Assembly (NCBI GenBank): GCA_033065855.1
Contig: JAVXUO010000334.1
Coordinates: 124,001-188,000 of the forward strand
Source: Escallonia rubra
Lineage: Eukaryota > Streptophyta > Magnoliopsida > Escalloniales > Escalloniaceae
DNA length: 64,000 nucleotides
Direction of reading: 5' to 3'
Positions 1 through 35,630 of this stretch are shown here, piece by piece. The notes below the pieces were generated by a model. The model did no database searches. It saw only the letters and a program-made list of their open reading frames with translations, and had not been told where the DNA came from. Every line of letters starts with the position of its first letter. Position 1 is the first letter of the stretch. The position numbers and the translations under genes were made by a program.

Positions 1-3000
1 TATTACGACACATCAGCTAATCACATCATATTGATAATACAAGTCATTCTAACTCACTTGGTAATTAAACCATACCATAAAACGTTAAAGAGTTTGCTTT
101 TACAAAAGACACCTATCCAGCTCTCTGTGAGATCTCAGAGTTGACATACTGTTCTATTCAAGTACAACATAATTCACAAATGAACAAGTGTTCCCTTGCC
201 CGTCTTCTCACCGTGCCTCACACCTTCTCCTTGTCTTTTGAGGGACCGACTCATTGATTTAAATTATTATTATGGGAAAACCCAGTCAGTCCACTGGCTC
301 AATAAGATAATCAAAGACATTTAATGTAACTTTCAACTCAAGATTATTAATAATGCATGTTATTGTAATTCAATCACATTAAGCATTTCTACATGTGCAC
401 ATTACACATATCAAATGTTCACACTTAGTTGAGCATTTCAAGAGTTTACTATTCCCGAATTTAGTCACATCAGTAGACCACCCTTATGTCACCACACTCA
501 AGATATAAGATCACAATGTTTGCCCCGGCCAAAGGCAAAGTAACCGAAAATAATTGAATACCGATAATGCCTCGGGTAGCAGTCAGAGATACAATTGTTC
601 GGCTCATACGGTGCACCGCTACTCAAACACAATCAAATCAATCCCCAATCATTTAGACGAGGTAACATAATAATCATCAACAATATATCAACTATCCCTT
701 ATAATGAAAGGATTTAACATGCTCTTGTGCAAGAAAACAGATCATTTCATACATGTAGTTATTGTAATCTTCATTTACTTGCACCATCAAACTTAGCTAT
801 CAAATATTTAGTCACTTTCATCATGTAACATCATCTTCATAACATCTTGAACATGTAATATAATCATTTATATTCAGCAAATGAGCTTCTATTATAGTAC
901 TTAACAGACATGTCCAAAACCATATTCTAACCATATCTAGTTTGACATAATTTCATAATTCACATGTACCATATCCTATTTCACGTCCTCCATAATCTCC
1001 AATATGTTAACCATGACAAGATTCACTTATTAACAAGTCTCTAACAATTATTCAAAAGTTTGACAAAGAATTCATACTAAAAGAATTACGCTAACATAGC
1101 ATATATCCATATTCATGTCTTAAAAGCCCATTAAAAAGTTTCAACTATCTTACTTTAAAGAAGAGATGAAAGAACCAAATTTTCAGATTTGAAACACTTT
1201 CAAAATACTCCTCAAAACACTGTTTAAAGCTCACATAAACTTTCCAAATCAGCTGCTTAAAGTTCCTTTTTAAAAAACAAGCCTTATTTCTAGATTTTGT
1301 AAGGTTTTTGGTTAATTTCTTGAAATTTTCTCTCAAAAAAGAGGTAAGAAAATTTAAGCATGTCAATTAGGTATTTTAACTCAAATTAGAAGCAAGTAGA
1401 AGGTGTCAAGTGGAGGTGAAGAGGTGGAGAAGTCAAGCACGGCGAGGCTTTAAGCACGAGGTGACAAGTTACGGTTGTGCCACCTAGCAAGCACGGCAAG
1501 CACGAGGTTGGCACATCACAAGCACGAGGTGGCACAATTCTGTGCAAAAAAAAAAACACACACACACATACACACAAACAATTCGCAGTCAGTCCGGTCA
1601 ATAACCTGTTAGTCCTAGTTAGAGTTTTTACCATTTTTTTTTGTTTCCAATTATTCTAAAAATATTTTTCATCATTCCAAGTGATCATTTAATTTTTTTA
1701 AACATCAAAGACTCTTCTCCGTTTCTTGCCCTTCTCTCACCTTCATAGACAATTTACTCAATTCAAGGTATTTAACATTTAAACATACATTCAGATATGT
1801 TATCATGCATAGTTCATCATAACCATCAGCATATGAAATGTTGGGTTCTCACATCCTTGTATCACCCCCGATACATACCATCCTTGTAACTCCTTAATAC
1901 ACTAACTCATGCCAATAAACAGAATGCAATAATCGATCACGCAACGAACCGATGCCTAACGAGAAATAAATCCCGAGCACCGATAAGGATTTCCAATAAA
2001 CGTGTAAGGTTCAAAACAAAGTATTAAAAGCAAATGATGCATTCTCAAAAAAATTATAACTGAGTCTAAAGAAAATTCGATAACAATTCAGAATTTTTTT
2101 TATTAGAACAATTAGATGAAATTGAGTTTTGAATAGAAATCTCTTACCTCAATCATCCAAGATATGCGCTCGCTGCTATTCAACCTCGTTCAAAACCTCA
2201 AATGAACCTAAATTGGCCATTTAATAATTAGAATACAATCGAGCCTCTTCACACTACAAATCTTATGCTAAAGACTCACTCCAACACTCTCAACCTAAAC
2301 CAAAACGAAACAGATCCCTCGGACGATGACCCCTCACTTTCTATAAGGCATTAAGACACCCCAAAAATTCATAATAAATATTTGTAAAGTACTTTATAGC
2401 TTAAATAGCATAACAAGTTACAATATGAATTTTTTGAATTCGCGAATATTTTTGAATTAAAATAATTTTCATAAATACTAGAAAAACCCAAAAATAGATA
2501 TTAATATTTTCAGCTGAAATCAAAGTCCCATAAATTTTATAATAGCTTTAAATTATATAAATATAATAACATAAATTAAAATCAAAAATTAAAAGCATCA
2601 AATCCATTTTAAAATTATCTGTTTAGCTAACTCAAATGCGAAATTGATTTAGTACCAAAACAACTCTAAAAATTATGAAACTGAAAATACCTGTTATTTA
2701 TACTAAAAAAACATTGCTGTAATTTTTTTGGAATTTAATAAGAATTTTAAAGTCTCAAAAATAATTTTAGAAAATTTGAACTTGCAGAAAATATTAAAAA
2801 TATCAAATGATATCAGAAAAATATGAAATTTAACAATAATTCTAATATTTTTATAAGAACTTTCCTCTAAAGTTTTAGCATTTTTCAATAATCGTACGAT
2901 GTCCCAGAATCATATGGTACAACTATGCAAGCATAATTTTCCACTCCACTGCTTAAACCCACTTATCCACTTTCATTTTCTTTATCTCTCTTCTCTGCAC

Positions 3001-3068
3001 AGACCTCTTTCCAAAATAAACTCACGCGCACACACTCACTTGTTCACTCACTCTCTAAACACACTACA

Positions 3069-3105
<37 letters not shown>

Positions 3106-3844
3106 CTCTCTACACACACTACACATTCACAGTCACGCACATCGAACTCACGCACACACACACACACAAGGACACACTTGCAAGCACACACCATTTTGCA
3201 CACACAGAGGTTCACACAAACACACACTTACACGCATTAAACTCACGCGCGCGCACACTCACCCTCTTGCAAACACACACTCTGCACTACCAACATGTTT
3301 ACACTAAAATCACACACAATACACACATTACTTCACACTCACATGGTGTATACAAACACACAAGTCCCACAAATACTCTCTCACGGCTGTTGTGCATCCT
3401 TTCCCTCTTTCTATTTCACCTACACTCACACATACAACACACCTCACTCATGGATACACACACAAGCACACACTCATGCACCCATTTCACCCATAATCAC
3501 ACAATACACAAACACATGCTGCCCTACTTACCACTATGTTCACGGCTGCACCTATATCCCACTTATTATACGCACTCAAACATACACAAACACACAACAC
3601 GCCACCCACAATTCATCCACTTGTACACATCATTTTTGCACACCCCCTATTTCAGTCCATCCACAAACACATATACACTATACACATATACATGCCCAAC
3701 CCACATACAACTACACCCACACATATTAACCTTCCCTAGATTTGACAAAAAAAATTGCCCACCAAATCGTCACTAAAGGTCAAATAAATAATTGATTGGA
3801 TTTTTTTTTACCATGAATTGAGACTTGGATTTTGGGGTGTTACA
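1..3844 (-). mobile_element. Tekay-like Ty3/gypsy LTR, minus strand, incomplete at the left edge
   Basis: Read on the minus strand, the sequence starting at 3,844 is TGTAACACCCC, the usual start of long LTRs in the plant Tekay/Del clade. The stretch has the same architecture as the better-defined LTRs at 15,993-19,750 and 42,392-46,019: a region whose plus strand is rich in C and A, with CA dinucleotide runs, near the start, followed by AT-rich low-complexity DNA. No coding sequence is supported. The other LTR end lies outside the window or is too worn to see, so no target duplication can be checked and the left limit is an inference. The 1,386-1,560 part contains short direct repeats of an AAGCACGAGGTGGCAC-like unit. 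Confidence 0.5.
3020..3720. repeat. CA-rich low-complexity tract with (AC)n microsatellite
   Basis: A pure (AC)n run sits at about 3,070-3,102. Around it lie several hundred bases of degenerate CACA/CATA/CTCA sequence. The translated frames here read as His/Thr-rich peptides only because of the repeat, so they are not genes. The tract belongs to the LTR whose minus-strand start is at 3,844. Confidence 0.8.
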
Positions 3845-3929
3845 CACTTGGATAGAGAACACTGAATGAAATGAACAAACAATGAATATACGTAATGGTG
3901 CATTAAAAAAAATTAAAAAATGAATGAAT

Positions 3930-5160
3930 CATTTATCGGGCACTGCGTCAACCGATTGAAGCTATCCTGGTAGGCCTCCACTATTGTCCCTGCCTACTCA
4001 TCCCTAAAATTCCACTGGTACATCGTCGGCTCACTCTCATCGGTGTCTCCCCTCACCCAATTGCGGTACTGGTGATCCCAGGACCTCGAAGGCCGAAACC
4101 TGTGAACCAAAATAACACGCGAGTAAGGTGTCTAAATTCATGTAATTAATCAGAAAAGAGCTAAGAGAGCATAAGCATACCTCCCATATGTTTTAACACC
4201 CCATAAAGCATTGAGTCTGCCCCCGTGACACTGCACCCCCAGGACACTGCACCAATAGAGTGGTACAAATATGCCAAAGTAGGAGTACCCCAGTCGTACT
4301 GCCCTATTTTTCCTACCTCATAAAAAGCCTATAGGCACTACAGCTGCATGAAGTCATACCCATTGCTGAACAATGTCTCCACCAAGACAAACAGAAACCT
4401 CTAGATGTACTTATAAATAGTCGGGCCATCGGCCCCCTCCAAAGTCATACCAGCGTTGTGCGCACAAAGGGAACCCAATTAAACTGCCCTTTTTGTAGGA
4501 CGGCTCACAACCATCATAGGACTAAGGAATAGGCCTCCCTCGGACGCTAATACTGGTGATATTCACAAAATTGTATGGGGTAAGTGTTGTGTATCCCCAA
4601 GTGGCATGTGGAAAGTATTGATGGAATCCCACTAATGCTCAGCCAAACTTGAAGATGCCTCTTACTATGGGCGAAACATGGAACCCGTCTAAAAAAAGCT
4701 CGAAATTGATACCAGCTATCCTAGCCCCTTCACATTGGGGTATCTTTGCCACCATTGCCAAAGTGATTTTGGCGATCCCCTACATAGCATGTTCGAGGGG
4801 AGTGGCTGCAAAACCAAGAAAAATAAGAAAAATCTCAAAGAGGGGTCTGATTTGTGCATGTGATGCATGAAAAATGGCATAGGTGGGCCCTACTTTACAT
4901 GGGGATGACTTGTGTGTGTAGAAGTGTGAATTAGTAAATTGGACAGGATTAGTTGGAAGATAGACCTCATCCGCAAAAAAATGTTTACTCAACTAAAGTC
5001 TTTGATCCAAAGCCAATAGTTAATGGTTGTCGGTCCCATTCGTCGGACATAAGTACGAAATTTGGCCAATTTGCGGCCCTCCTTCATGTCCCCTTCTATT
5101 TCGTCTCTTGTACTTTAGACCACACTATGACCGAACAAAAATGAGTTTCTCACTCTTTCT
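3930..5160 (-). pseudogene. Plant mobile domain (PMD) gene relic, copy A
   Basis: Minus-strand translation in broken frames gives PMD hallmarks in order: a WWDSINTFHMPLG-like start (about 4,640-4,590), CAHNAGMTLEGADGPT (about 4,470-4,430), WGTPTLAYLYHSIGA (about 4,295-4,250) and RPSRSWDHQYRNW (about 4,100-4,060). PMD proteins are plant nuclear proteins of the MAIN/MAIL family, and the domain is also carried by transposons. Stops and frameshifts are frequent, and an apparent intron separates the third and fourth blocks. The segment is a reverse-complement homologue of 46,021-47,090, so the same element is present twice in opposite orientation. The minus-strand LTR at 1-3,844 lies directly beyond its 3' side. 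Confidence 0.7.
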
Positions 5161-23459: not shown

Positions 23460-24675
23460 CCCATTACCCATCAATAAATATGTCTCATTTTTCTCTCTTC
23501 CCTCTCGGAGATATGACAATTACTCTAGAAGATGTAGGGTACATCTTAAGGTTATCGGTGATGGGACGGCCGGTAATTGCTCCTCCGTCGGAAGCAATGA
23601 ATAAGAGAACCGCTAGGGACTTCTTCACTTTGATACCTGAGGAACAATTTAGGTCTGGAGGTATAAAGTTGAAGTGGTTGGTAGATACCTACAAGGTTTT
23701 TTCGGAAAACTATATGGACGAGATGCTTGTGTTGTACACACAAGCTTTCTTCTTGTGGGTGATGGGGGCAATTTTATTCCCAACGACGTCGAAGAACACG
23801 GTCAGCGTGAAATATTTACCGTTGTTGGGTAACCTGTAGGAGGTTAGGGATTACGCCTGGGGTGCAGCAACTCTTGCGTACCTGTACCGAGCATTGCACA
23901 AGGCAACGAGGCCCGACTCCAAAGCTATATGTGCATGTCTCTCGCTATTGCATGTATATCATATAAATCTTGATTACGTGTTCGATTTTTTTTTGTTGAA
24001 TTGACAATAAATTTTGACGATACTTTATATAATTTTTCTTTGCTCTCAGGTGTGGTCTTATCAATACCTTGCTACTGGCGCACCCAGGCGTAGGGACGGA
24101 ACCGATAATGTGTGGCCTCGGTTGTGCATCTGGGAGTACAGCCGGAAGGCCAGCCACTACCTGAGGAGAGACAATCCCCATCACAACATTACGTACTATC
24201 GGGGGGAGCTCGACTCGTTATCTCCGGGCCAGATGCGTTGGGCACCGTACAAACGTTTGGCGCGACGGGTGGGAGAGTCGTTCATCTTCACACTCTTCGG
24301 GTTGCAACGCACACCCTTGATCCACTTCGAGGTCGCAGAGTGGCAGCTGCCAAATCGCGTTATGCGCCATTTTGACTGCTTGCAGGGGTTCCTAGCCGAT
24401 GCCCCGAATATGATGGTTAACAGGAAGCCACCGGGTGTCGGACGGTTTGGCAAGGCGAATGCGCACGACTTGTGCGCACCAGAAATTAAGGTTTGGAATT
24501 CCTGGCTAGACACACTGATGTCCATTCTATCGGAGCCTGACCCCGTGATCAGCACCGAACAGTACAATGATGGTACTACCGCATCACCCGGAGGAGAGTT
24601 GCCCCAGTAAGGTTTGAATGCGGGGAGATGTACGCGCCTAGGGGTCAGATCGATGAGCGTATGGCATGCGATCTG
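23460..24675 (+). pseudogene. Plant mobile domain part of a PMD-Ulp1 gene, copy B
   Basis: The PMD starts abruptly at NMSHFSLFPLGDMTITLEDV (about 23,471) next to the hAT end, so its N-terminus is lost. It continues through YILRLSVMGRPV, GGIKLKWLVDTY, a WGAATLAYLYRALHKATRP block (about 23,860-23,916), a likely intron of about 110 bp ending at TTTGCTCTCAG (24,049), and the 198-codon open stretch 24,014-24,610. That stretch has WSYQYLATGAPRR, WEYSRKASHYL, YYRGELDSLSPGQMRWAPY and WQLPNRVMRHF. PMD proteins act in the nucleus in silencing and meristem maintenance, and many copies are transposon-borne. An in-frame stop after GELPQ (24,608-24,610) and a lost splice donor make this a relic. A canonical intron (GTAAG...TAG) follows at 24,676-24,764. 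Confidence 0.8.
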
Positions 24676-24764
24676 GTAAGTTGCCCAACAACTGCTTTAC
24701 ATTGAATTTGATGATTTTAAGTTGGTGTTTGAAGTCACTTATTTATTATCTCTTTGGGGATGTA

Positions 24765-25375
24765 GGTTAATGCCTCGCTCGCCTTCTTCTAGAAGTTGAG
24801 CAAGCGAAGGGATCTGGTGGATGCAATGGGCGAGGAGCTTCGCCAACAGGCGAATGCGTTGGCATTTTGCTGTGGGAGTTTTTTGCACCAAGCAACGGGA
24901 CAACCTTCGGGCGTCAGCCCGAGAATCGGTTATCCGGGGTGGCAGGCCCCTTACGTGAGCGAGGGATATGGTGATCCCTCGGGACAGACTTCGAGGGTGA
25001 GCCAGGGATACGGTGGTCCCTTTGTACCAGGAATGGGTGGTGAATGGGGACCGCCAAGCACCATGGGCCAGGTTCAAGCGCCGTGGGAAGAGTACAGTGC
25101 GCCCTCGTTCACTTTGCTTCCGGACTCGGAACCTCAACCCCTCTCTCAGAGTCAAGTCACGTAGGACTGGGGTTTTAGAAACATCAGTCTATCCGAGACA
25201 CTGCCCATTGTCCCGTGGGCGGGATCATTGGTAGCCGAAGGAGGGAAATATCCCCCGGTCGACCCCCTAGGGCAATATCGCAAAGGGCATCCATTGAAGC
25301 CCCTAAAGCCGCATAAACGCCAACTAATCCGAGAACGTTATTTAAGCGGGCCCCCCCCAAGACAAAGCGTCGTAT
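24765..25375 (+). pseudogene. Linker of the PMD-Ulp1 gene, Gly/Pro/Ser-rich
   Basis: After the intron the frame has KKLSKRRDLVDAMGEELRQQ-type helical sequence, with one stop in it. A Gly/Pro/Ser-rich low-complexity segment of about 100 residues follows, containing repeats of the GYGDPSGQTSRVSQGYGGP kind. It joins the PMD to the Ulp1-like protease, as in other transposon-derived PMD-protease genes. A TAG stop (25,162-25,164) interrupts it. Confidence 0.6.
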
Positions 25376-26230
25376 AGTGTGGATCAACCGAATGGGTTGG
25401 ATTACTGTTGCTCGTGGGAAAAAATGGCCTCACTGGCTCCGGTGGATTGGTTAGACAACGGTGTCATCTCTACCTACGTGGAGATTCTGAAGCAAAGAGG
25501 TCGGGAGCGGCTGAACGAGTATCCGGGCATTTTTTTGGTGGATGATTTTTTTCATAGCCTCATAGTATCTGAATGGTGTGAGTGGGGCTAGCTAAGGGGG
25601 CAGAAAAATTTGAGCGAGTGGAAACCGTCTGCTAACCTACGAGCGTATCTAACTAAGGATAATCTAGTGAGCGCAAGGGTTGCCCACGTGTTTCTAATCC
25701 CATTTTTAGGGGAAAGGCACTGGCACTTGGTTTGCTATGAACCAACACAGAAGATCGTATCAGTCAGCGACAGTCTCCACGACGATACCATCAAGATGCC
25801 TGTGTTGTGGATGTACAAAGGCCAATTGGATGCTATGGTAATGTTACGATTGTTGTTTTAATGCTTATTGTAAATTGCCAATTGTAAGTGTTAACTCGTG
25901 TCTTACGCCGTTTTCTATTTCTCGTAGAATCTATTTTGTGACATGCTCCACAGTATCCGTGATGTAGGACTACCGGCGCGGCCAAAGCTCCAATACCGAT
26001 TGAAGAAGAGGAGGCCCAAGCAACATAATACTTCGGACTGCGGTGTCTTCGTCTGCATGTACATGGACTACATTTGTCGGTTTGAGAGCCTCAAGGCGAC
26101 CGTCTGGAGTCAAGAATGTGTAGAAGGCTTTGTTCCCAACCTATCTTGGCTGCACCTACAGTCCCACTGGGGCTCCCAATTCTCATGGTCAAATTTTCAA
26201 CGGTCACAGGTCGGTCAAAGCGTCACATAA
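25376..26230 (+). pseudogene. Ulp1-like cysteine protease (C48) domain
   Basis: The domain shows LAPVDWLDNGVISTYVEIL (about 25,432-25,488), FLIPFLGERHWHLVCYEPTQ with the catalytic His, VSVSDSL with the catalytic Asp, and TSDCGVFVCMYMDYI with the catalytic Cys (about 26,030-26,076). The C48 triad is thus conserved. Ulp1 proteases remove SUMO from proteins; transposon versions are of unknown target. An intron with GT...AG borders lies at 25,838-25,927. A TAG at 25,589-25,591 breaks the frame between the first and second blocks, so the copy is not functional as it stands. Confidence 0.85.
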
Positions 26231-26279
26231 TCAAGTCACATGCATTTTTTCCTTTGTGAAGCAGCCTTGGTGTGCCTTC

Positions 26280-26826
26280 CCCCTTAAGGGGGTCGGCCAC
26301 CAACCCTGACGACCGACTACCGTCGTCCGTGACTCTCGTCGACCGCGTGCCCGCTTTGCAACTCTCATCACCCGCACGCTATCTTCGCGACCTTCGTCGC
26401 CCGCCTCCGTGCGCCAGCTCTGCGACTCTCGTCGCCCGGGCACCATCTCCGCGACCTTCGTCCCCGCGTCCGCGCGCCAGCTTCGTGACCTTCGTCGCCC
26501 GTGTCCGCGCGCCAGCTCTGCCCACCCCCGCGCGATAACTTTGTGACTCTCGTCACCCGCACGCCGTCTCCGTGACCTTCGTCGTCGATGCCCACCCACC
26601 GCACCCTCACACGCCGCCGCGCCCATGCAGTGCGTTGCTTATACAACCATCCCCTCTGGCTCTCTGTCTCGCTACGTGTCCCCGACATCATGTATCGTCC
26701 GGCGACACTCATCACCGCTCTCATGCACCATTCTCAAGATATGTGCCCCGACACTAGGTATTGTCTCGCGACGGTAGTCATCGCACCGATGCGCCACAAT
26801 CATGTTATGTGCTTCTCTGGGGAGGG
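26280..26826. repeat. GC-rich degenerate tandem repeats
   Basis: Units of roughly 60 bp contain GCGCCAGCTCTGCGACT and CTCGTCGCCCG, or CCTTCGTCGCCCG, variants. The composition is far more GC-rich than the surroundings. Arg-rich and Pro-rich frames on both strands are by-products. A weaker continuation (26,640-26,826) repeats TGTCCCGACA and ACTCATCACCG-like blocks. Confidence 0.7.
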
Positions 26827-27345
26827 GGGGCTCCGCTCGTAGTGCTCCGGCACGAGGATCCCTCGCAGCGGGATGGGCTCACAACCTTAAAGCCATCGCC
26901 GGCACAATCACGGGGGGCTCCGCTCGTAGTGCTCCGGCATGAAGACCCCTCGTAGCGGGATGGGCTCATAACCCTAAAGCCATTGCCGACACAATCACCG
27001 AGGGCTCCGGCCCTCGCAGCGGGATGGGCTCACAACCCTAAATCCATCACCGGCATAATCACCGGGGGCTCCGACCCTCGTAGCAAGATAGACTCACAAC
27101 CCTAAAGCCATCGCCGACACAATCACCGCGGGCTCCGGCCCTCGCAATGGGATGCGCTCACAACCCTAATGCCATTGTCGGCACAATCACCGGAAGCTCC
27201 GGCCCTCGCAGCGGGATGGGCTCACAACCCTAAAGCCATCCCCGACACAATCAGTGGGGACTCCGGCCCTCACAGCGGGATTGACTCATAACCCTAAAGT
27301 CGTCCCCGACACAATCACGGGGGGCTCCGGCACGAAGACCCCCCG
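26827..27345. repeat. Minisatellite, about eight copies, 63-84 bp unit
   Basis: Each unit has GGGGGCTCCG, then CCCTCGCAGCGGGATGGGCT, then CACAACCCTAAAGCCATC and GCCGGCACAATCAC. Starts are near 26,827, 26,911, 26,999, 27,064, 27,127, 27,190, 27,254 and 27,320. The first two units have an extra segment of about 20 bp (CGTAGTGCTCCGGCACGA). Confidence 0.88.
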
Positions 27346-28260
27346 CAACGGACTCTGAGCATTGAGCTGCGAGCATGCCCACTCATGTTACCTTTGATCG
27401 CCGACACCACCAGGGCAATGACCCACACCCGGGTCATTCCGGGACAGGAGCAGGTCCTTAGAGAGCATCACGCCTAATCCGCCTGACAGTTGGCTACAGG
27501 GACAACCTTCACCGCTGTCAGGTTCTCTGCGCGTCTCTTGACGCATCTTGTGGGATTCAGTAAAGGCTTGGACCGGTGGCTGGGGCAACGGGCTGCTCTA
27601 ACCATGCTACCGCGGCATGGTCAGTCTCCTCAGACAGGCAGAGAGATGCTGCAAGGGCAGGGCAGCACGAACTTGGGGACCGGCAGTCCAATGGAGAATC
27701 GGTACTTTGGACCCCCTGGCGACGTGTCACTCCCAGAGGACGACAGGTGTTGGCTGATGACACATTCACATTTTTTCCTATAAATAGTGGACTTTGGGGC
27801 TTATTCAAATAGCTCTCTCTTATTTGACATTTTCACTTTCTCTCTCTAAAAGACCCATTCTCTCTGGAATTCTAGTGGGAGAAACACATTTGGACTCCTG
27901 ACATCGGACCCTCGACGCTGGACCCTTGACTTGGACCTTGACTCGGGCTGTTGACTGCCGGCCCTGTTCATCGTCGCCTTGCCTGCGCGACGCTGCTAGC
28001 CCTCGCGACCTGTCTGGGGAGCCTTGCTCTCAGCCGTTACTCCATCCTTGTTGTCTCCCACTTTGCCAACTTGGAAGCTGATTCAGACAGCATCATTTGT
28101 GGCACCTCCGTGTAGCATCGAACCCCTTTCCTTGCCATCAGGCTTTAGATATAGGATAGCTTGGGAAATTATGAAAGGCCGGCCTAAAGCGGTTATGTTT
28201 ATTGAAAATCCATTTAAGGACGAGAATCCGGCTCAACATGAGGACCCCAGTTGACATTGT
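27346..28260 (+). mobile_element. LTR-like segment with TATA box
   Basis: A strong TATA box, CCTATAAATAGTGG (27,777-27,790), is followed by a CT-rich leader (CTCTCTCTTATTTGAC, TTTCTCTCTCTAAAAG) typical of an LTR R/U5 or of a plant promoter. Downstream, 28,024-28,254 has a 76-codon open frame that I do not recognise. No TG...CA ends could be fixed. Confidence 0.4.
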
Positions 28261-28489
28261 AACATTCGAATAAGTTTTTTTAATAAATCTTCATTATTTT
28301 TATGAAAGCTGTCATTAGTATGATTTGATTTGTGTTGAGATCAGTTGATTTGGGTTGAAGATGATTGATTTGACAGATTTGATTAGATTTACTTTGAGTT
28401 GACGTATATATTTGGGTTTTTTTTTCTCTCATTGAATGATTGAATGGTGGGAAACAAAATTGAGGGAAAGTCCTATAAATTGTTTCTGC

Positions 28490-30675
28490 TTCACCGTCCG
28501 CTACACAGTGTAGCGGACGTATAGAAAGCAAAAAAATTTCCAATAGTTGGAGTTTAGAGTTTCTGGTGCGCCATTCGCTACACAACGTAGCGGACGTACA
28601 GAGAACAAATTTTTTTCTAAGTGTTGGAGTCCAGAGTTTCTGCTGCGCTGTCCGCTACACAGTGTAGCATATGTATGGAGAACAAAAAACTTTCCAAGTG
28701 TTGGAGTCCTTAGTTTCTGCTGCGCCGTCCGCTACACAGTGTAGCGGAAGTATAGAAAGCAAAAAAAATTGAAGTGTTGGTGTTATATCCCGATCTTAGG
28801 TTTGAATTTTTAATTTTAACAAATTTTACTTAATTCTTTTAGCGGCAAATTTTACAAGTAACAATATTTGCGCCTTTTTAGCGACGAACTTTTTTAGCGT
28901 TAGCTTATTTCTCTTTAATGACCTTTAGTGAAAATTGTAGAATCATAACTTATAATTTACGTTAGTAATTATAAATGATATTGATTGTGGTCTTTAGTGA
29001 CGATTAGCGTTAATGACATTTTTTTTATATAGTTAACGTCGATACTTTATTAACAAGTTTTAGCAACGAGCAAGTGTAGCGGGGTTCGGTAATAAACCGT
29101 TAACTTATTTTAATATGTCATCTTTCATAAATAACTATATTAGGCATTTTGTAACAATAAAAATTCCGGGTAGAATTTAAATGGCTCATGAAATGGTAGG
29201 GGGATTTATTGTAATTATACAAATTAGGGTTATATATATATATATATATATATATAAGACATAGTCGTGGGCAGCCACCCTTAGCCGTCAGAAAACCTAA
29301 TGCCTGATAAGAAGGAGATATCAGGAGATAGAAGAGAGCTTGAAAAAGGGATTCTCCGGCAAGTTTCCGACGATCAATAGTAAATTCGGTAAGCCTTCTC
29401 TCAGCTTTTTCTCTATTAGCTTATAGAATTCAGTTTAAAATTCACTATTGTATTGCATATATGACTACGGGTCTATAAATCTGTTGGGTGTGAGAACCTG
29501 TGAAGAGGGGGGAAATTTGTTAAGTGTTTTAAAGGGGTTTAGTATTATGCCGTGAGAGTACCGGGTAGGGTGAGTGCAAGGTGGTCACGGGTGTACGGGT
29601 TGGACCCATGAACGACCATGGCTGTATAGGGGTTATGACTTACGGCACCGTCAAGGATCACATGAAGGTAGAAGCAAACCCAGTAGCTGCGGCCGAGATA
29701 GAGAACAGGTTGGACGTGGTGTGTGTGTATGTAAACTGGGTGGGCCCGTTAGTGTGTCTATGTGGTTAGAAGCAAACCCAATAGCCGCGGCCGAGATATG
29801 ATCATGTAATTAGAGTTGTAGAAGTTTTAATTTCCGCTGCAGCTTATATTGATTCTAGCGAGTAAGGCCTGGCAGAGCCCTTGGTTGGAGTGTATTGGGT
29901 CTGCGGTCGGTCACGTGCCTAGCTCGTGGGTCTGCCCGTGGGTTCGGGTCGTGACAGTTGGAGTCATAGTTTCTGCTGCGCCGTCTGCTACACAGTGTAG
30001 CGGGATATATAAAGTAAATTTTTTTCTAAATGTTGGAGTCCGAGTTTCTACTGCTCCATCCGCTACACAGTGTAGTAAATGTATAGAAAGCAAAAAACAT
30101 TTTAAGTGTTGGAGTCCAGAGTTTCTGCTGCACCGTCCGCTACACAGTGTAGCGGATGTATAGAAAGAAAAAAAAATTCTAAGTGTTGGAGTCCATAATT
30201 TATGTTGCGCCGTCCGTTACACAGTGTAGCGGTGAAGAACAAAAATATTTCTAAGTGTTGGAGTCCTTAGTTTCTGCTACACTGTCCGCTACACAGTGTA
30301 GCGGACGTATGGAGAACAAAAAAATTTCTAAGTGTTGGAGTCCAGAGTTTCTGCTGCGCCATCCTCTACGAACAAATTTTTTTCTAAGTGTTGGAATCCA
30401 GACTTTCTGTTGCGCCGTCAGCTACACAGTGTAGCAGACGTATAGAGAACAAATTTTTTTCTAATTGTTGGAATCCAGAGTTTCTGCTGTGCCGTTCGCT
30501 ACATATTGTAGCGGACGTGTAGAGAACAAAAACTTTTCAAAGTGTTGGATTTAGTTATTGCTGCGCCGTCCGCTACACAGTGTAGCAGACATACAGGAAA
30601 CAAATTTTTTTTTTGAAATGTTGGAGATCAGTCTTTCTGCTGTGCCGTCCGCTACACAGTGTAGCGGACGTTGCT
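28490..30675. repeat. Palindrome array, left block (about 14 units, 75-78 bp period)
   Basis: Each unit contains the near-perfect palindrome with core CCGCTACACAGTGTAGCGG (12-bp arms around a central A, 25 bp in all) set in AGTGTTGGAGTCCAGAGTTTC and ...GAGAACAAAAAATTTC. Cores lie near 28,498, 28,573, 28,650, 28,728, 29,984, 30,060, 30,137, 30,214, 30,287, 30,417, 30,495, 30,571 and 30,647, with a defective unit near 30,357. Units differ mainly at CG positions. A solo LTR (28,781-29,956) splits the array. Spacers are repeats of each other, so this is a tandem repeat. Confidence 0.93.
28781..29956 (+). mobile_element. Solo LTR, 1,176 bp, in the palindrome array
   Basis: It begins TGTTATATCCCG and ends GGGTCGTGACA, with a perfect 5-bp target duplication GTTGG at 28,776-28,780 and 29,957-29,961. 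Removing it rejoins the repeat unit AGTGTTGG/AGTC exactly. A TA-rich promoter-like block (29,231-29,257) precedes a probable transcript start region. The frames at 29,570-29,800 are short and unrecognised. Confidence 0.88.
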
Positions 30676-30889
30676 AATTCTGTTTTATGAAATTGGTGAC
30701 GGAATAAATGTTTTAGCGATGTAATCAACAATCTCAATATCTCAAATGCACGAGTAACAATAAAAAATCATCAATTAACAGCCTCAAATCATCAATTAAC
30801 AATCACAATTCTCAAATGCAGAATTAAGAACCTAAAATTATCAAACAAATGAACATTAACACAAAATTGTTCATAACTTGATTTAGGGT
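30676..30889. other. Spacer between palindrome array and B3 gene
   Basis: AT-rich DNA with imperfect CAATCTCAAATGCA / CATCAATTAACA short repeats. It probably holds the 3' untranslated region of the minus-strand B3 gene. Confidence 0.5.
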
Positions 30890-31332
30890 TCAACATTGGG
30901 GGAAAGGTTTTTCACAAGTGCTTTGATCAAACACCATCACTTGAAAACGCATATGCCCCATGTGTTTAAAGATTAGAAAGTCCCCTAGATAAAGGTCATG
31001 CTCCTGCACGAATTTGTTCCAACCCTCTTCGAAACAAATTTGCTCTTGGTCGCACTTTATCTTGATTTTAACAAGCCATGACCCCTTGCGGCTGGTTAAA
31101 GTTGCTTCGAAATAAAGTGTGGTAAGCAATCTGCAAAAGGCTACCGGTATGGCCTAATATATTCATAATACAGTAAGACAGGTAAGTTTTTAACCAAAGA
31201 TAAAACTTTTAACACACACAAAAACACAAAGAAAAAGGGATGGCCTACAAGTTCTGTATGAAAACCAGGCATCATGACCTTGAAGAAGTGTCTGCCGACT
31301 GAAACGTCCCTGTTCACCGAAGTAGAAGCCAT
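30890..31332 (-). CDS. REM-type B3 DNA-binding protein, two exons
   Basis: Exon 1 (31,332-31,249, 28 codons) starts at ATG and reads SVGRHFFKVMMPGFHTEL. A 95-bp intron (31,248-31,154) has GT...AG borders and keeps phase 0. Exon 2 (31,153-30,890) reads IPVAFCRLL, then GSWLVKIK, then GWNKFVQEHDLYLGDFLIFK, then FQVMVFDQSTCEK, and stops. The 115-residue product is a single complete B3 fold, as in REM proteins, which bind DNA in the major groove in the nucleus. The coding frame is intact although every neighbour is broken. It lies between two blocks of the palindrome array; the upstream block (31,605-31,830) is where its promoter should be. Whether it is a captured host gene or a regular component of the transposon cannot be told from one copy. 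Confidence 0.82.
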
Positions 31333-31604
31333 CAGGATGGATCTGTCGTCGGAGGTGGCACCGCGTCGGGGGGATCTTTAGGGATGTCGCTGGAGGCGTC
31401 GCGGCGTTGAGGGGAGAACGGGGTTATCGCCGGAGGTGGCGCGGCGTCGGGGGGTGGACGATGGTGTCGCCGGAGATGTGGGTTGTCGTAGAGGGGTCAC
31501 AGGTGGGTGAGATGTTCGAGACAGATAGAGAAACGGGAGAAAGAAGAATGGCCGATCTGTTAATATTTAACAGGAGTTTGGGCGACGTGTTGGAGTTTTA
31601 AACT

Positions 31605-31830
31605 GTGCAGACACGTCCGCTACATTGTGTAGCGGACACAAAGAACACCAAAAGTTGTTTTGTGCAGAGTCGTCCGTTACATTGTGTAGCGGACAAAAAG
31701 AACACAATTTTTTTTTTCTAAGTGATGGAGTTTTAGGATTCTGCAGAGCCGTCCGCTACATTGTTTAGCGGACATAAACAACCCTAAGATTCCAAATGCA
31801 CTGTCCTCTACACTATGTAGCGGACGGGAC
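31605..31830. repeat. Palindrome array, middle block (four copies)
   Basis: Four palindromes of the form CCGCTACATTGTGTAGCGG or close variants lie near 31,614, 31,671, 31,754 and 31,802. Here the centre is ATTGT rather than ACAGT. They sit 275-500 bp upstream of the B3 start codon and just behind the MULE transposase stop, between the two minus-strand genes. Confidence 0.9.
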
Positions 31831-31983
31831 AAATCAACAAAAAAAACTTAAACTTAGATTTGATGGCTTTCATAGGTCCATCAGAAATAAAATTCCAGTC
31901 TTTGGTCGAAATATTATTAGAAAACAATTACAAAAAATTATTACAAATGTCAAACAGACTTGATTGATGGCTTATACAAACAA

Positions 31984-34246
31984 TTAAAGGTCCACTGCAA
32001 CTTCTTCTTCCTCGTCTTGCAAACCCCCTGGACTTATCCCCAGTGATTTGTAATGGTTCCGCTTGTCATGGTCGGTCATTTTGTTGCACAATGCACATTT
32101 TCTCAGCTTTTTAGGTTGAGTTGCCTGTTCAATAGAGCTCTTCATCTGCGTAGATTTCTTACGCGGCCTTTCGTTTTCGATATAATTGGATCCAAAGGCC
32201 GGATATCATTGTCGTCTTCCTCTCTCGGCTCATCATCTTCTGATCCCGTTATAGTCTCGGTGTCAACCGCATTGCTGACTGAAGCTACTTCCAATTGGTT
32301 GACGATGGGCTCTTGCTACTGAGCTAACTCGAAGAGATGTTTATATTCGGCCATTGTAGAAACACCTTTTACGGACAAACGGGTGAACATTGTCACCAGA
32401 TGATTATACCGCAATGTCTCTGATTTCTCAAAGTCAGTATACGGGTGCTCCGGAAAGGCAATGGTACCGTGCAATCTGTTTGCACCTTTCATCCACCGTG
32501 GCAGGACATAATTATCGGGGATTGTCCTGATATTCTTCTGGGTGAAAAACTGCAGAATGTGTCTACACATGATGCCATGGAACTCAAACTTCTACACATG
32601 TCACCGAGTCCGTCAATGTGTCGTGGCTCACCATATAAATTCTGCGCAGCTTCTCAGAGACGAGGTCATTCACGAGCGACTAAACCTTGTACTCACGCGT
32701 AGACTTTTCTGCCACCTTGTTTATACTGTATCGTCCTAATTTTCGCAGCTCTACTTGGTAGAGCATGAAGATCTTCATCGTATAGACTTTGGCACCATTC
32801 AGCTCCAGCAGGGTCTCAAGCAACCTTCTCCTTTGTTTGTACATGGTTGCAAAGTCTGCTGCCCTTTCTTTCACGAATAACGACGCAACCGCTTTTTGTG
32901 CAGATGTGATGAAACTCTTCAAATTGGTAGATGTACCCACATAACTATCGAACGTGGCATTCATAGATTCACTCATGCCCGTCGTTTTCATGCCCACAGA
33001 AAAATGTCTCCTCATGTAAACGCCAATCCATTGCTCTTTGAGCTCGTACAAGTGCTGGAGCCACTCGTTGTCTTGCAATGAGTAATCCTCAACAAGCTTT
33101 TCCCACCTATCCTTAAATTCCTCAATCGTTAACGACTTAATAACGCACTTTTCAAAATCCTGTTTAAAGTATGGATACTTTGCATACACGTGATGCAGAT
33201 GTTCAGGATATTTGTTGCTTATGTGCCAAGTGCACAAGTTGTGTCGAGTCTCTGGGAAGACGGTAGCAATAGCCTTCTTCATTGCCAAATCTTGATCGGG
33301 GATGATAACTTTGGGTGCTTTGTTATTCATGGCCTCCAGCCACACCCTAAACAACCATACAAAATAACCCTCGCTCTCGTCCCTTAACAAGGCGAACCCG
33401 AATAGGATGAAGTGATAATGATGATTGACGCCCGTGAAAGGAGCGAACGGCATCGAGTACTTGTTGGTACGGTATGTGGTGTCGAAAGTCACGACATCGC
33501 CAAAATGCTTATAAGCTAGCCTCGAATGACCGTCGAACCAAAAAATTGTGCTAACTCGATGATCGTCGTCAAGTTTATAATCAAAGGTAAACTGCGAGTT
33601 CTCTATCTGAATCCGCTTCAATAGACTCATTGTGGATTGAGCATCATTGAGGTCATACGCGGCTCGTCTTTGGGTTCGGACTACGTTACGAACGTCGTGT
33701 TAAAGTTTAGATTATGAATTCCTCTAGCCTGTTCAGCAAGAACATTAATCATGTTGGTAGGTCCTAGCCGCGCATTGCTCATTGTCTGAATCAGGCTCAT
33801 TACGACCTTACCCATCTTCTTGTGTTGATGCATCTGACTCACCTTAGAAGGGGTTACTAACGGGTGATTGTGTGCCAGTTCCAAACTAGTAATAAGCCAA
33901 TGATCTTGTTTGGGTTTATAGCATACGAACATCTTGACCTGGCAATTCGTGCGCGCAAAGCAGTCCCGTCTTCTACGCGAATATCCTATTTCGTCATCAC
34001 TGTCATCGTTGCCTGCGCATGTCTCATTTTGCAGTGGGTTTCTGCCCCTATGACACTCGTATAAGCGAGAGCATTTTTTTTTGTTATGTTGCTTGTTCTT
34101 GTAGTCTTTATTCTATTGCCAAAACCAACCCTCAATGAAAACACTCGAAAACATTCTTCGGCTTCTTCCAATGTTTGAAATGTTCGTCCTAGATACAGAT
34201 CACTAGCATCGACGGGGGTGTTGGAGCTCGCCACGAAATCAGACAT
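31984..34246 (-). pseudogene. FAR1-type MULE transposase, broken
   Basis: The order on the minus strand is complete. An N-terminal FAR1 zinc-binding region (LGRTFQTLEEAEECFRVFSL, about 34,205; HNHPLVTP after a frameshift, about 33,866). The MULE catalytic domain (33,630-32,680): STIFWFDGHSR, GDVVTFDTTYRTNKYSMPFA with the first Asp, KVIIPDQDLAMKKA with the second Asp, and a CTWHI motif. A SWIM zinc finger, C-x-C...CRHILQFF, about 32,600-32,550. A C-terminal zinc knuckle (KCALCNKMTDHDKRNH, about 32,090-32,045). The protein would be about 740 residues, normal for the FHY3/FAR1-MULE family. Such transposases bind and cut the ends of their element. At least two frameshifts or stops (near 33,985, 33,650 and 32,680) inactivate this copy. 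The leader 34,247-34,800 is AT-rich. Confidence 0.88.
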
Positions 34247-34804
34247 TGTGAAACAAGACCTATGTAGACTTAGATTACGCTTAACTATCAAATGGCGTTT
34301 CTTGAACAGCCTTCATGAATAGACCAATTTAGGATGACAAATATACCAAACATAATCTCAAAAGTGTCTCCAATTTAACAATTATTAATTTATTGAACAT
34401 ATCAAATTAAAATTACTAATATAAATAGACAAATTCATCATGCCAAAACACAACAAACATAATCTCCAAAAATTCGAATTTAACTATAATAAACTTGTTG
34501 AAGTTAACGAATTTCAAAAAGTTCGAATTTAACTATAAAAAATTTGTTTCAAGTTAACAAATTAATTTCTTGAACATCACAAATTAAAACTTCTTTGATG
34601 AATATAGTGATAAATCCCAAAGAAATATATATATTCATCCAAAATACTTTATCAAGTGTTCACCATTCACAAACTTACCTTGGTTGAGAGAAGCTTGAAG
34701 CAAATGTTACTCGAAGCTTGAAGGGAGCTGAAAATGGAAGCAAGTGAATCTCCAGGAGATGAAAATGCTAAAAGAGCTGAGAATTAGGGAACTTTTGGGT
34801 ATAG
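34247..34804. other. AT-rich leader between MULE transposase and palindromes
   Basis: No coding potential. Two near-copies of a GAATTTAACTATAA / TTGTTGAAGTTAACGAATT-like segment (34,475-34,565) form a short direct repeat. The stretch is the likely 5' untranslated region and promoter of the minus-strand transposase. Confidence 0.5.
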
Positions 34805-35062
34805 CTGCAATACTGTCCGCGATACTGTATGGCGGACAGTATTGGGGGACAGCTCTGACGTGTGCAGAAATAAATGTACAGAAATTAAACGCCGTGTGTC
34901 AACCGTGTCAGTCAAAAAGTCATCCGATACACTGTGTAGCGGACGACTTTTTGACTGACACATGTCAGGACCAGAAATTCGTCCGCTACACAGTATAGCG
35001 GACGAGGGAGGAGGGGCAATCTGGTAAAAAATACCGTCCGCTACACTATGTAGCGGACGACT
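34805..35062. repeat. Palindrome array, right block (four copies)
   Basis: Copies lie near 34,817, 34,923, 34,982 and 35,037. The first is diverged (CCGCGATACTGTATGGCGG); the others keep CCGCTACAC...GTAGCGG. They lie 560-800 bp upstream of the transposase start codon, towards the outer edge of the MULE-like block. Confidence 0.88.
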
Positions 35063-35131
35063 GACAGCTTTTGAAAAAAAAAAGATCTGGGCAGTCCATC
35101 CTTTCAGGATGGACGGCTAAATCGCGCTAGC

Positions 35132-35170
35132 AAAATCTTTTATTTTGCTAGCGCTATCAACGGATCAGCT

Positions 35171-35220
<50 letters not shown>

Positions 35221-35259
35221 AGCTGATCCGTTGATAGCGCTAGCAAAATAAAAGATTTT
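35132..35259. repeat. Perfect 128-bp palindrome with (TA)n centre
   Basis: The left arm AAAATCTTTTATTTTGCTAG continues to GGATCAGCTCCTATATA, and the right arm is its exact reverse complement, meeting in a TA run. Each arm itself contains a smaller inverted repeat (CGCTAGCAAAAT...ATTTTGCTAGCG). The copy could fold into a cruciform or be a small fold-back (MITE-like) element. Confidence 0.9.
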
Positions 35260-35630
35260 GTGTTTGTGTGTGTGTAAGAAATGGGTTACAAAGCTAATTA
35301 CCTGAATCTGTAAGAAATGTAGAAGGAAAATGTTTGTAAGAAATGTATAATGTAATTGCAAAGTTTCAGCTTAAGTTTTGCCTGAACTTGGGCCACTAGA
35401 ACAGAATTTGAGACCCTAATACTAGCTTCATGCAAAGTTGACATGTTTATCTAGCCAATTACCCAAATTTATCTAACCAAGTTGATCATTATACCAGTGA
35501 TGGTAAGCATAAGCTCCATTAATTAATGGTTTGCCAATGTTGCCGATTACATTAACAAAAGGTTGTAGAAGTTCCCATGAAGAGAACTTCAACTTTGTTA
35601 CGTTGCTAAACTTCAGTCCTAATAAAAAAG
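35260..35630. other. Spacer inside the right end of the composite insertion
   Basis: AT-rich, non-coding. From about 35,630 the sequence becomes the AAATGGGTCA-rich subterminal region of the hAT-like right end. Confidence 0.5.

Follow-up and report, generated by a model that had tools for sequence, protein, structure and literature searches.

The genome assembly of Escallonia rubra (GCA_033065855.1) includes a stretch of 64,000 nucleotides, hereafter the window (contig JAVXUO010000334.1, positions 124,001 to 188,000), in which an old, decayed copy of a Mutator-like element (MULE) of the FAR1 type lies at approximately 23.5-35.2 kb. A PMD-Ulp1 gene, a B3 gene, a transposase and numerous copies of a short palindrome are still recognisable in it (Table 1). 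An earlier interpretation made from the letters alone (the sequence-only reading) had described a MULE-like block at 28490..35062 and proposed that the B3 protein recognises the half-site of the palindrome, the arrays being its binding platform in an anti-silencing system. The attribution to MULEs was upheld; the extent had to be revised, as the element is larger and includes the PMD-Ulp1 gene from 23494. The palindrome itself consists of two half-sites, GTCCGCTANA, inverted relative to each other at fixed spacing, and looks like a candidate site for a protein dimer that is read as sequence.

The copy in the window and its family

The B3 gene of the window was indeed found intact, its 115 codons lying in two exons separated by a GT-AG intron, and its product matches Pfam PF02362 (E 1.7e-13; 50.8 bits, above the gathering cut-off of 30.1). 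The transposase is broken, as had been stated, with coding pieces spread over several frames, in which the Pfam domains MULE (3.1e-32) and FAR1 (5.5e-07) are detectable. With up to three mismatches the palindrome CCGCTACACAGTGTAGCGG occurs at 20 separate places (28498-35056; mean of 0.02 matches in shuffled sequence), to which come a deleted copy near 30364 and one more palindrome, exact in its arms, at 34815, in agreement with the approximately 22 copies reported before. The division into three blocks likewise holds, with 13 copies and the deleted one 3' of B3, four between B3 and the transposase and four in front of the transposase. The first block is a single 77-bp tandem array interrupted by an insert (28781-29956), whose TG..CA ends and GTTGG duplication suggest a solo long terminal repeat (LTR).

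Table 1. Features of the MULE copy in the window (TIR, terminal inverted repeat).
Feature	Position	Strand	Evidence or remark
PMD-Ulp1 gene	23494..26131, short 3' tail 28140-28254	+	81-92% DNA identity to L023, L028, L021, L012
Insertion in Ulp1 part, 2,008 bp	26132..28139	.	family homology stops at 26131, restarts at 28140
Array part 1, 4 palindromes	28482..28780	.	77-bp tandem array
Solo-LTR-like insertion, 1,176 bp, splitting the array	28781..29956	.	5-bp duplication GTTGG
Array part 2, 9 palindromes and deleted copy	29957..30671	.	77-bp tandem array
B3 gene, 115 aa	30890..31332; exon 1 31332-31249, intron 31248-31154, exon 2 31153-30890	-	Pfam PF02362
4 palindromes between B3 and transposase	31615..31825	.	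exact arms in 2/4
Broken FAR1-MULE transposase	31990..34246	-	five tblastn pieces, 78-87% identity to L023 protein
4 palindromes 5' of transposase, 3/4 inside right TIR	34815..35058	.	pattern matches, TIR comparison
Right TIR, ending at (TA)n run 35173-35218	34914..35172	.	80% identity to L023 TIRs

The family was studied in the whole assembly (566,129,122 bases in 3,222 contigs), from which 27 other loci were sampled: 20 are stretches no longer than 10 kb that surround palindrome clusters among the first 100 places, three of the sampled stretches being extended (names ending in x, e.g., L022x), and seven are later places, taken as listed except that C9:114321, C48 and C85:113032 were skipped. 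All seven later loci were assigned to the family by a match to its TIR, transposase, PMD, Ulp1 or B3. The complete elements L023 and L016 measure about 9.1-9.2 kb and share one order, namely TIR, PMD-Ulp1 (+), array, B3 (-), palindromes, transposase (-), palindromes and TIR. In L023 the Pfam domains PMD, Peptidase_C48, FAR1, MULE and SWIM were identified; its PMD-Ulp1 gene lies at 1588-4542, and its transposase of 782 aa (MULE 1.6e-33, FAR1 3.8e-13, SWIM 5.4e-05) is that of a FAR1/Jittery-type MULE. The TIRs of L023 are about 300 bp long and 99% alike, both are also present in L016, L017 and L026, and together with the three transposase domains they confirm the family as MULEs. Runs of (TA)n flank the ends of L016, L017, L023 and L026 and the right end of the window copy, and the 9-11 bp target duplication of MULEs is unreadable because the element ends sit in these runs.

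Stop-free, full-length transposases were found in L016, L023 and L026. Compared with L023, the ratio of nonsynonymous (dN) to synonymous (dS) change, omega, is 0.26-0.41 for full-length transposases, which are thus under constraint; the PMD part reaches 0.33-0.59, and the FAR1 part shows constraint in five of six comparisons (dN 0.05-0.10).

At the left side of the window copy, neither the 5' end of the PMD-Ulp1 gene nor a left TIR was found. A truncation of the element at 28140 was ruled out by a PMD match at 23477, which revealed the insert at 26132-28139. This insert has a candidate 7-bp target duplication, AGGCTTT, and holds GC-rich tandem repeats with units of 35-87 bp at 26343-27331. At the right side, a perfect 65-bp inverted repeat (35131-35260) surrounds the (TA)n run, immediately past which the TIR end recurs in opposite orientation.

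Paired half-sites at a fixed distance

With exact arms and an 11-bp spacer, GTCCGC-N11-GCGGAC occurs 19,579 times genome-wide versus twice for the reversed control, and with spacers of 0-30 bp taken together the same arms occur 19,932 times versus 185. Judging from the 27 loci, most of the 19,579 exact-arm sites would belong to the MULE family. Of 217 arm pairs within 40 bp in the first 21 sequences, 213 share the 11-bp spacing, and the arms GTCCGC and GCGGAC are constant across elements, while the middle varies by element and by block. Among 422 sites with up to eight mismatches, the half-site GTCCGCTANA is largely preserved, with the greatest variation at positions 8 and 10 of the middle.

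The conservation was also apparent where the sites had not been chosen by the site itself, as 37 TIR-like sequences were aligned whole: mean column identity was 0.963 in the arms, 0.853 in the middle and 0.789 in the rest (arms vs rest, Mann-Whitney p 1.5e-12), and the consensus of the 37 copies contains three palindromes. Closer to the TIR tip than the palindromes (window 35085-35115), another inverted repeat, GTCCATCC..GGATGGAC, is likewise well kept; it is a possible site of binding at the terminus.

Arrays detected by Tandem Repeats Finder, in which the palindrome was not used, consist of one roughly 77-bp unit in elements with and without B3, and by eye the units of both follow the common pattern CTAAGTGTTG ... 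TTTCTGCTG ... palindrome; CTAAGTGTTG and TTTCTGCTG are thus kept outside the palindrome. None of the 46 sites of L023 and L016 lies in coding DNA. Tandem repeats that carry a short motif in non-coding DNA are a trait of VANDAL elements, and the earlier comparison of the arrays with VANC targets is supported as far as the accessible part of the source describes them (PMC5735166). A scan of bacterial genomes for the pattern gave a single place, in Hymenobacter, which was taken as chance.

A role of the palindromes as DNA or RNA structure, for example as cruciforms or as hairpins giving rise to small RNAs, would be in keeping with the frequency of perfect palindromes and with two-sided changes, which are mostly compensated at the middle positions 8 (48 of 72) and 10 (52 of 55). 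At the six arm positions, however, 312 changes are one-sided and 20 compensated, and this predominance favours reading as sequence over hairpins; moreover, the 11-bp spacing holds while the middle is often unpaired. We therefore regard a structural function as very improbable.

The B3 gene within and beyond the MULE

B3 recurs in other MULE copies, as the sequence-only reading had anticipated: it is present around palindromes in 13 of the 27 loci (L010, L012, L015, L016, L018, L021, L023, L025-L028, L038 and L039), and in all 13, as in the window, palindromes flank it. In three loci (L022x, L024 and L029x) the whole interval from Ulp1 to the transposase is without a B3 match at E<1, PMD-Ulp1, array and transposase being present; in two (L011 and L017) this interval is deleted, and for nine (L013, L014, L019, L020 and L033-L037) the B3 status was unreadable. 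The same arms are found in the three B3-less elements, so that arrays without B3, which the sequence-only reading had named as evidence against itself should they be common, do exist in part of the family. In an unrooted transposase tree these three cluster with L013 and L019x (support 0.999), in both of which the B3 status is unreadable. Palindromes are also carried by copies without genes: in L014 the two TIRs enclose no gene match, and L020 matches the TIR but none of the genes.

Beyond these loci, searching the genome with the B3 of the window, where 150 of 2,361 first-look candidates were scored, returned at least 180 exon-level matches. A single-copy host gene is thereby ruled out, and the fear that B3 might occur only here proved groundless. 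The exact 19-mer palindrome lies within 10 kb of three of the 23 listed B3 matches surveyed by eye on contigs up to C476 (C233, C272 and C358), which counts against a tight link between B3 and the palindrome, the exact 19-mer being a weak marker of co-occurrence since several arrays lack it. A MULE TIR lies some 2 kb from the B3 match C9:97950, so neighbourhood alone does not establish membership.

Among the matches listed, 12 had the same score at E 9.2e-45 and 21 at E 7.1e-44, and one copy of each group was examined (L040 and L041), along with their left neighbours (L043 and L044). L040 and L041 sit in a repeat beginning CACTACAAGGAATAAGG with TTTAGCGACGG subterminal repeats; in L043 and L044 one repeat end was seen, with CACTACAAGG and TTTAGCGACGG repeats, which we take to be a CACTA-like terminus. 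The GTCCGC palindrome was not found in the approximately 2.1 kb read from each of two CACTA-like copies. The B3 gene of L040 is intact with 115 codons, and in the B3 tree L040 and L041 nest beside the MULE copies L021 and L028 (support 99). Stretches resembling TTAGCGACGG (up to two mismatches), two to four each, occur in the 3' flank of B3 in ten MULE copies including the window, and none at this threshold in that of L016, L023, L026 and L038. The B3 gene thus seems to have passed between the MULE and the CACTA-like kind of transposon, in either direction. That it might be an anti-silencing or regulatory module of two superfamilies, reading the TAGCG common to TAGCGGAC and TTTAGCGACGG, is a highly speculative extension to which we give little credence. 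No paper joining a B3 domain with MULEs or CACTA elements was found in a literature coverage outside which most subscription papers lay.

With regard to its evolution, omega between lineages lies for the most part close to 1 in B3 exon 2 (0.37-1.8; dN as high as 0.38), compared with 0.24-0.61 (dN no higher than 0.08) in a stretch of the transposase from the same elements; both ranges exclude near-identical pairs. The sequence-only reading had suggested that substitution patterns be compared for purifying selection, and such selection was recognised in the core of the domain: at the 20-21 positions common to the window B3 and At1g16640, omega is 0.06-0.64, whereas the other 66 positions evolve fast (0.47-1.67, the lower values stemming from pairs with the CACTA-like copy, and about 1.2-1.7 in three MULE pairs). 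These figures rest on small numbers, and the core was picked from the window sequence, which favours window pairs. The pattern would be in line with retention of the fold and change at the surface, and because the core is kept while other positions evolve fast, B3 is probably a functional accessory.

Broken B3 copies do exist among the MULE loci (including L018, L021, L025, L027 and L028). A captured, dying fragment is nevertheless not favoured in view of the core omega and of the neutral odds that 121 codons stay free of stops, which are 0.26, 0.12 and 0.03 at 0.1, 0.18 and 0.36 substitutions per site; the latter carry no more than moderate weight, and for many pairs omega computed on the whole of exon 2 comes close to 1. 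Between the window and L023 the synonymous distance is about 0.35 for B3 exon 2 and about 0.2 for the transposase, the higher value hinting at an exchange of B3 between elements.

A homologue search in 5.8 billion proteins gave a sole match, a protein of Escallonia herrerae that shares 78% identity with the L023 B3; a second B3 query retrieved no homologue among proteins, and phmmer found no match to B3 in the PDB. By profile comparison with the PDB, the nearest solved B3 is At1g16640 (1YEL). The region aligned with the strand-loop of TEM1 varies, including a change in length.

Candidate binders and relation to known transposons

In our preferred reading, which we consider about as likely to be right as wrong, the decayed FAR1-type MULE of the window belongs to a family whose palindrome is a dimer site, with the FAR1 domain of the transposase as the likeliest binder and B3 as an accessory limited to some lineages. 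The palindromes in the TIRs, 5' of the transposase and in the intergenic tandem arrays would be bound by a protein common to the lineages, for which the full lineages offer two, the transposase and PMD-Ulp1; the former is ranked first because the TIR consensus holds three sites. Binding at the TIR palindromes would serve transposition, and binding at the internal arrays might keep the promoters of the element open, by analogy with TnpA of Spm, MURA and VANC. B3 would sit amid the palindromes as an accessory whose DNA-binding fold is kept, and would not be what defines the arrays.

Several points weigh against this reading. The transposases of L022x, L024 and L029x are broken (4, 4 and 11 stops, respectively), so that these copies may have depended on a B3 supplied in trans, and the FAR1 part of L022x is unconstrained (dN 0.235, dS 0.447). 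By presence, PMD-Ulp1 is an equal candidate for the binder, and it is kept in play by Ulp1-bearing VANC genes known from VANDALs, according to the accessible part of PMC13317346. The anti-silencing step would be borrowed from other systems by analogy, tandem homogenisation alone accounts for part of the likeness within arrays, and a host factor could bind the palindrome.

If B3 itself bound the half-site, the arrays would be its platform in a VANC-like anti-silencing system, and the B3-less copies, having lost the gene, would rely on B3 supplied in trans. The flanking palindromes in 13 of the 27 fetched loci and in the window are consistent with this, as is the combination of a constrained core with fast positions in three MULE pairs; the variable TEM1 strand-loop region, with its length change, is what changing DNA contacts would lead one to expect, and all three stop-free transposases (L016, L023 and L026) belong to elements with B3. 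Yet elements without B3 share the arms and the array unit, TIR copies without genes carry palindromes, the arms are constant although dN of B3 exon 2 reaches 0.38, and B3 also lies in the CACTA-like repeat with no palindrome nearby. The view of the palindromes as B3's own platform, as put forward in the sequence-only reading, is therefore not supported, and we judge it unlikely. An origin as sites of a host regulator, captured by the family for its expression, appears more doubtful still: the position of the palindromes, which surround B3 and lie 5' of the transposase, with none of the 46 in the coding DNA of two elements, would agree with it, but the three palindromes in the TIR consensus and those in gene-less TIR copies fit transposition better.

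Should the transposase be the binder, the arrays would represent an internal use of the transposition site; should it be B3, a host-type DNA-binding fold would have become a mobile accessory of two kinds of transposon. With three candidate binders per element and relatives without one of them, the family offers a natural test of how transposons maintain their own control sites.

Among known systems, MuTAnT and SaTar MULEs resemble the Escallonia family in having TIRs and inserting into TA microsatellites, and MuTAnT also has a Jittery-like transposase, corresponding to the FAR1/Jittery type found here; unlike the Escallonia family, they are described in the accessible parts of the sources without mention of PMD-Ulp1, B3 or dispersed palindrome arrays (PMC4486113; PMC5907723). 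VANDALs are likewise MULEs with additional genes, some VANC proteins having a Ulp1 domain, and their motifs form fast-changing tandem repeats in non-coding DNA similar to the Escallonia arrays, as far as the available text of these papers goes (PMC5735166; PMC10398659; PMC13317346). VANDALs are, however, characterised as lacking TIRs in PMC6446971, whereas the Escallonia family possesses them, and VANC21 motifs lie in one orientation, in contrast to the inverted pair of the Escallonia site. No VANC-type domain appeared in Pfam scans of the B3, transposase and PMD-Ulp1 segments, the coverage of VANC by Pfam being unchecked.

TnpA of Spm/En binds subterminal repeats. Like MURA of MuDR, it acts on its own elements and accompanies loss of methylation, as stated in the accessible part of PMC10398659. 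Both systems differ in motif and gene set from the Escallonia family. Profiles from both Pfam and the PDB assign the Escallonia B3 the fold of plant B3 proteins such as At1g16640, from which it differs in being located in transposons. What appears to be new is a candidate site for a dimer, very abundant and rigidly spaced, in a MULE family that has three genes and occurs in TA runs, and a B3 gene apparently common to MULE and CACTA-like elements.

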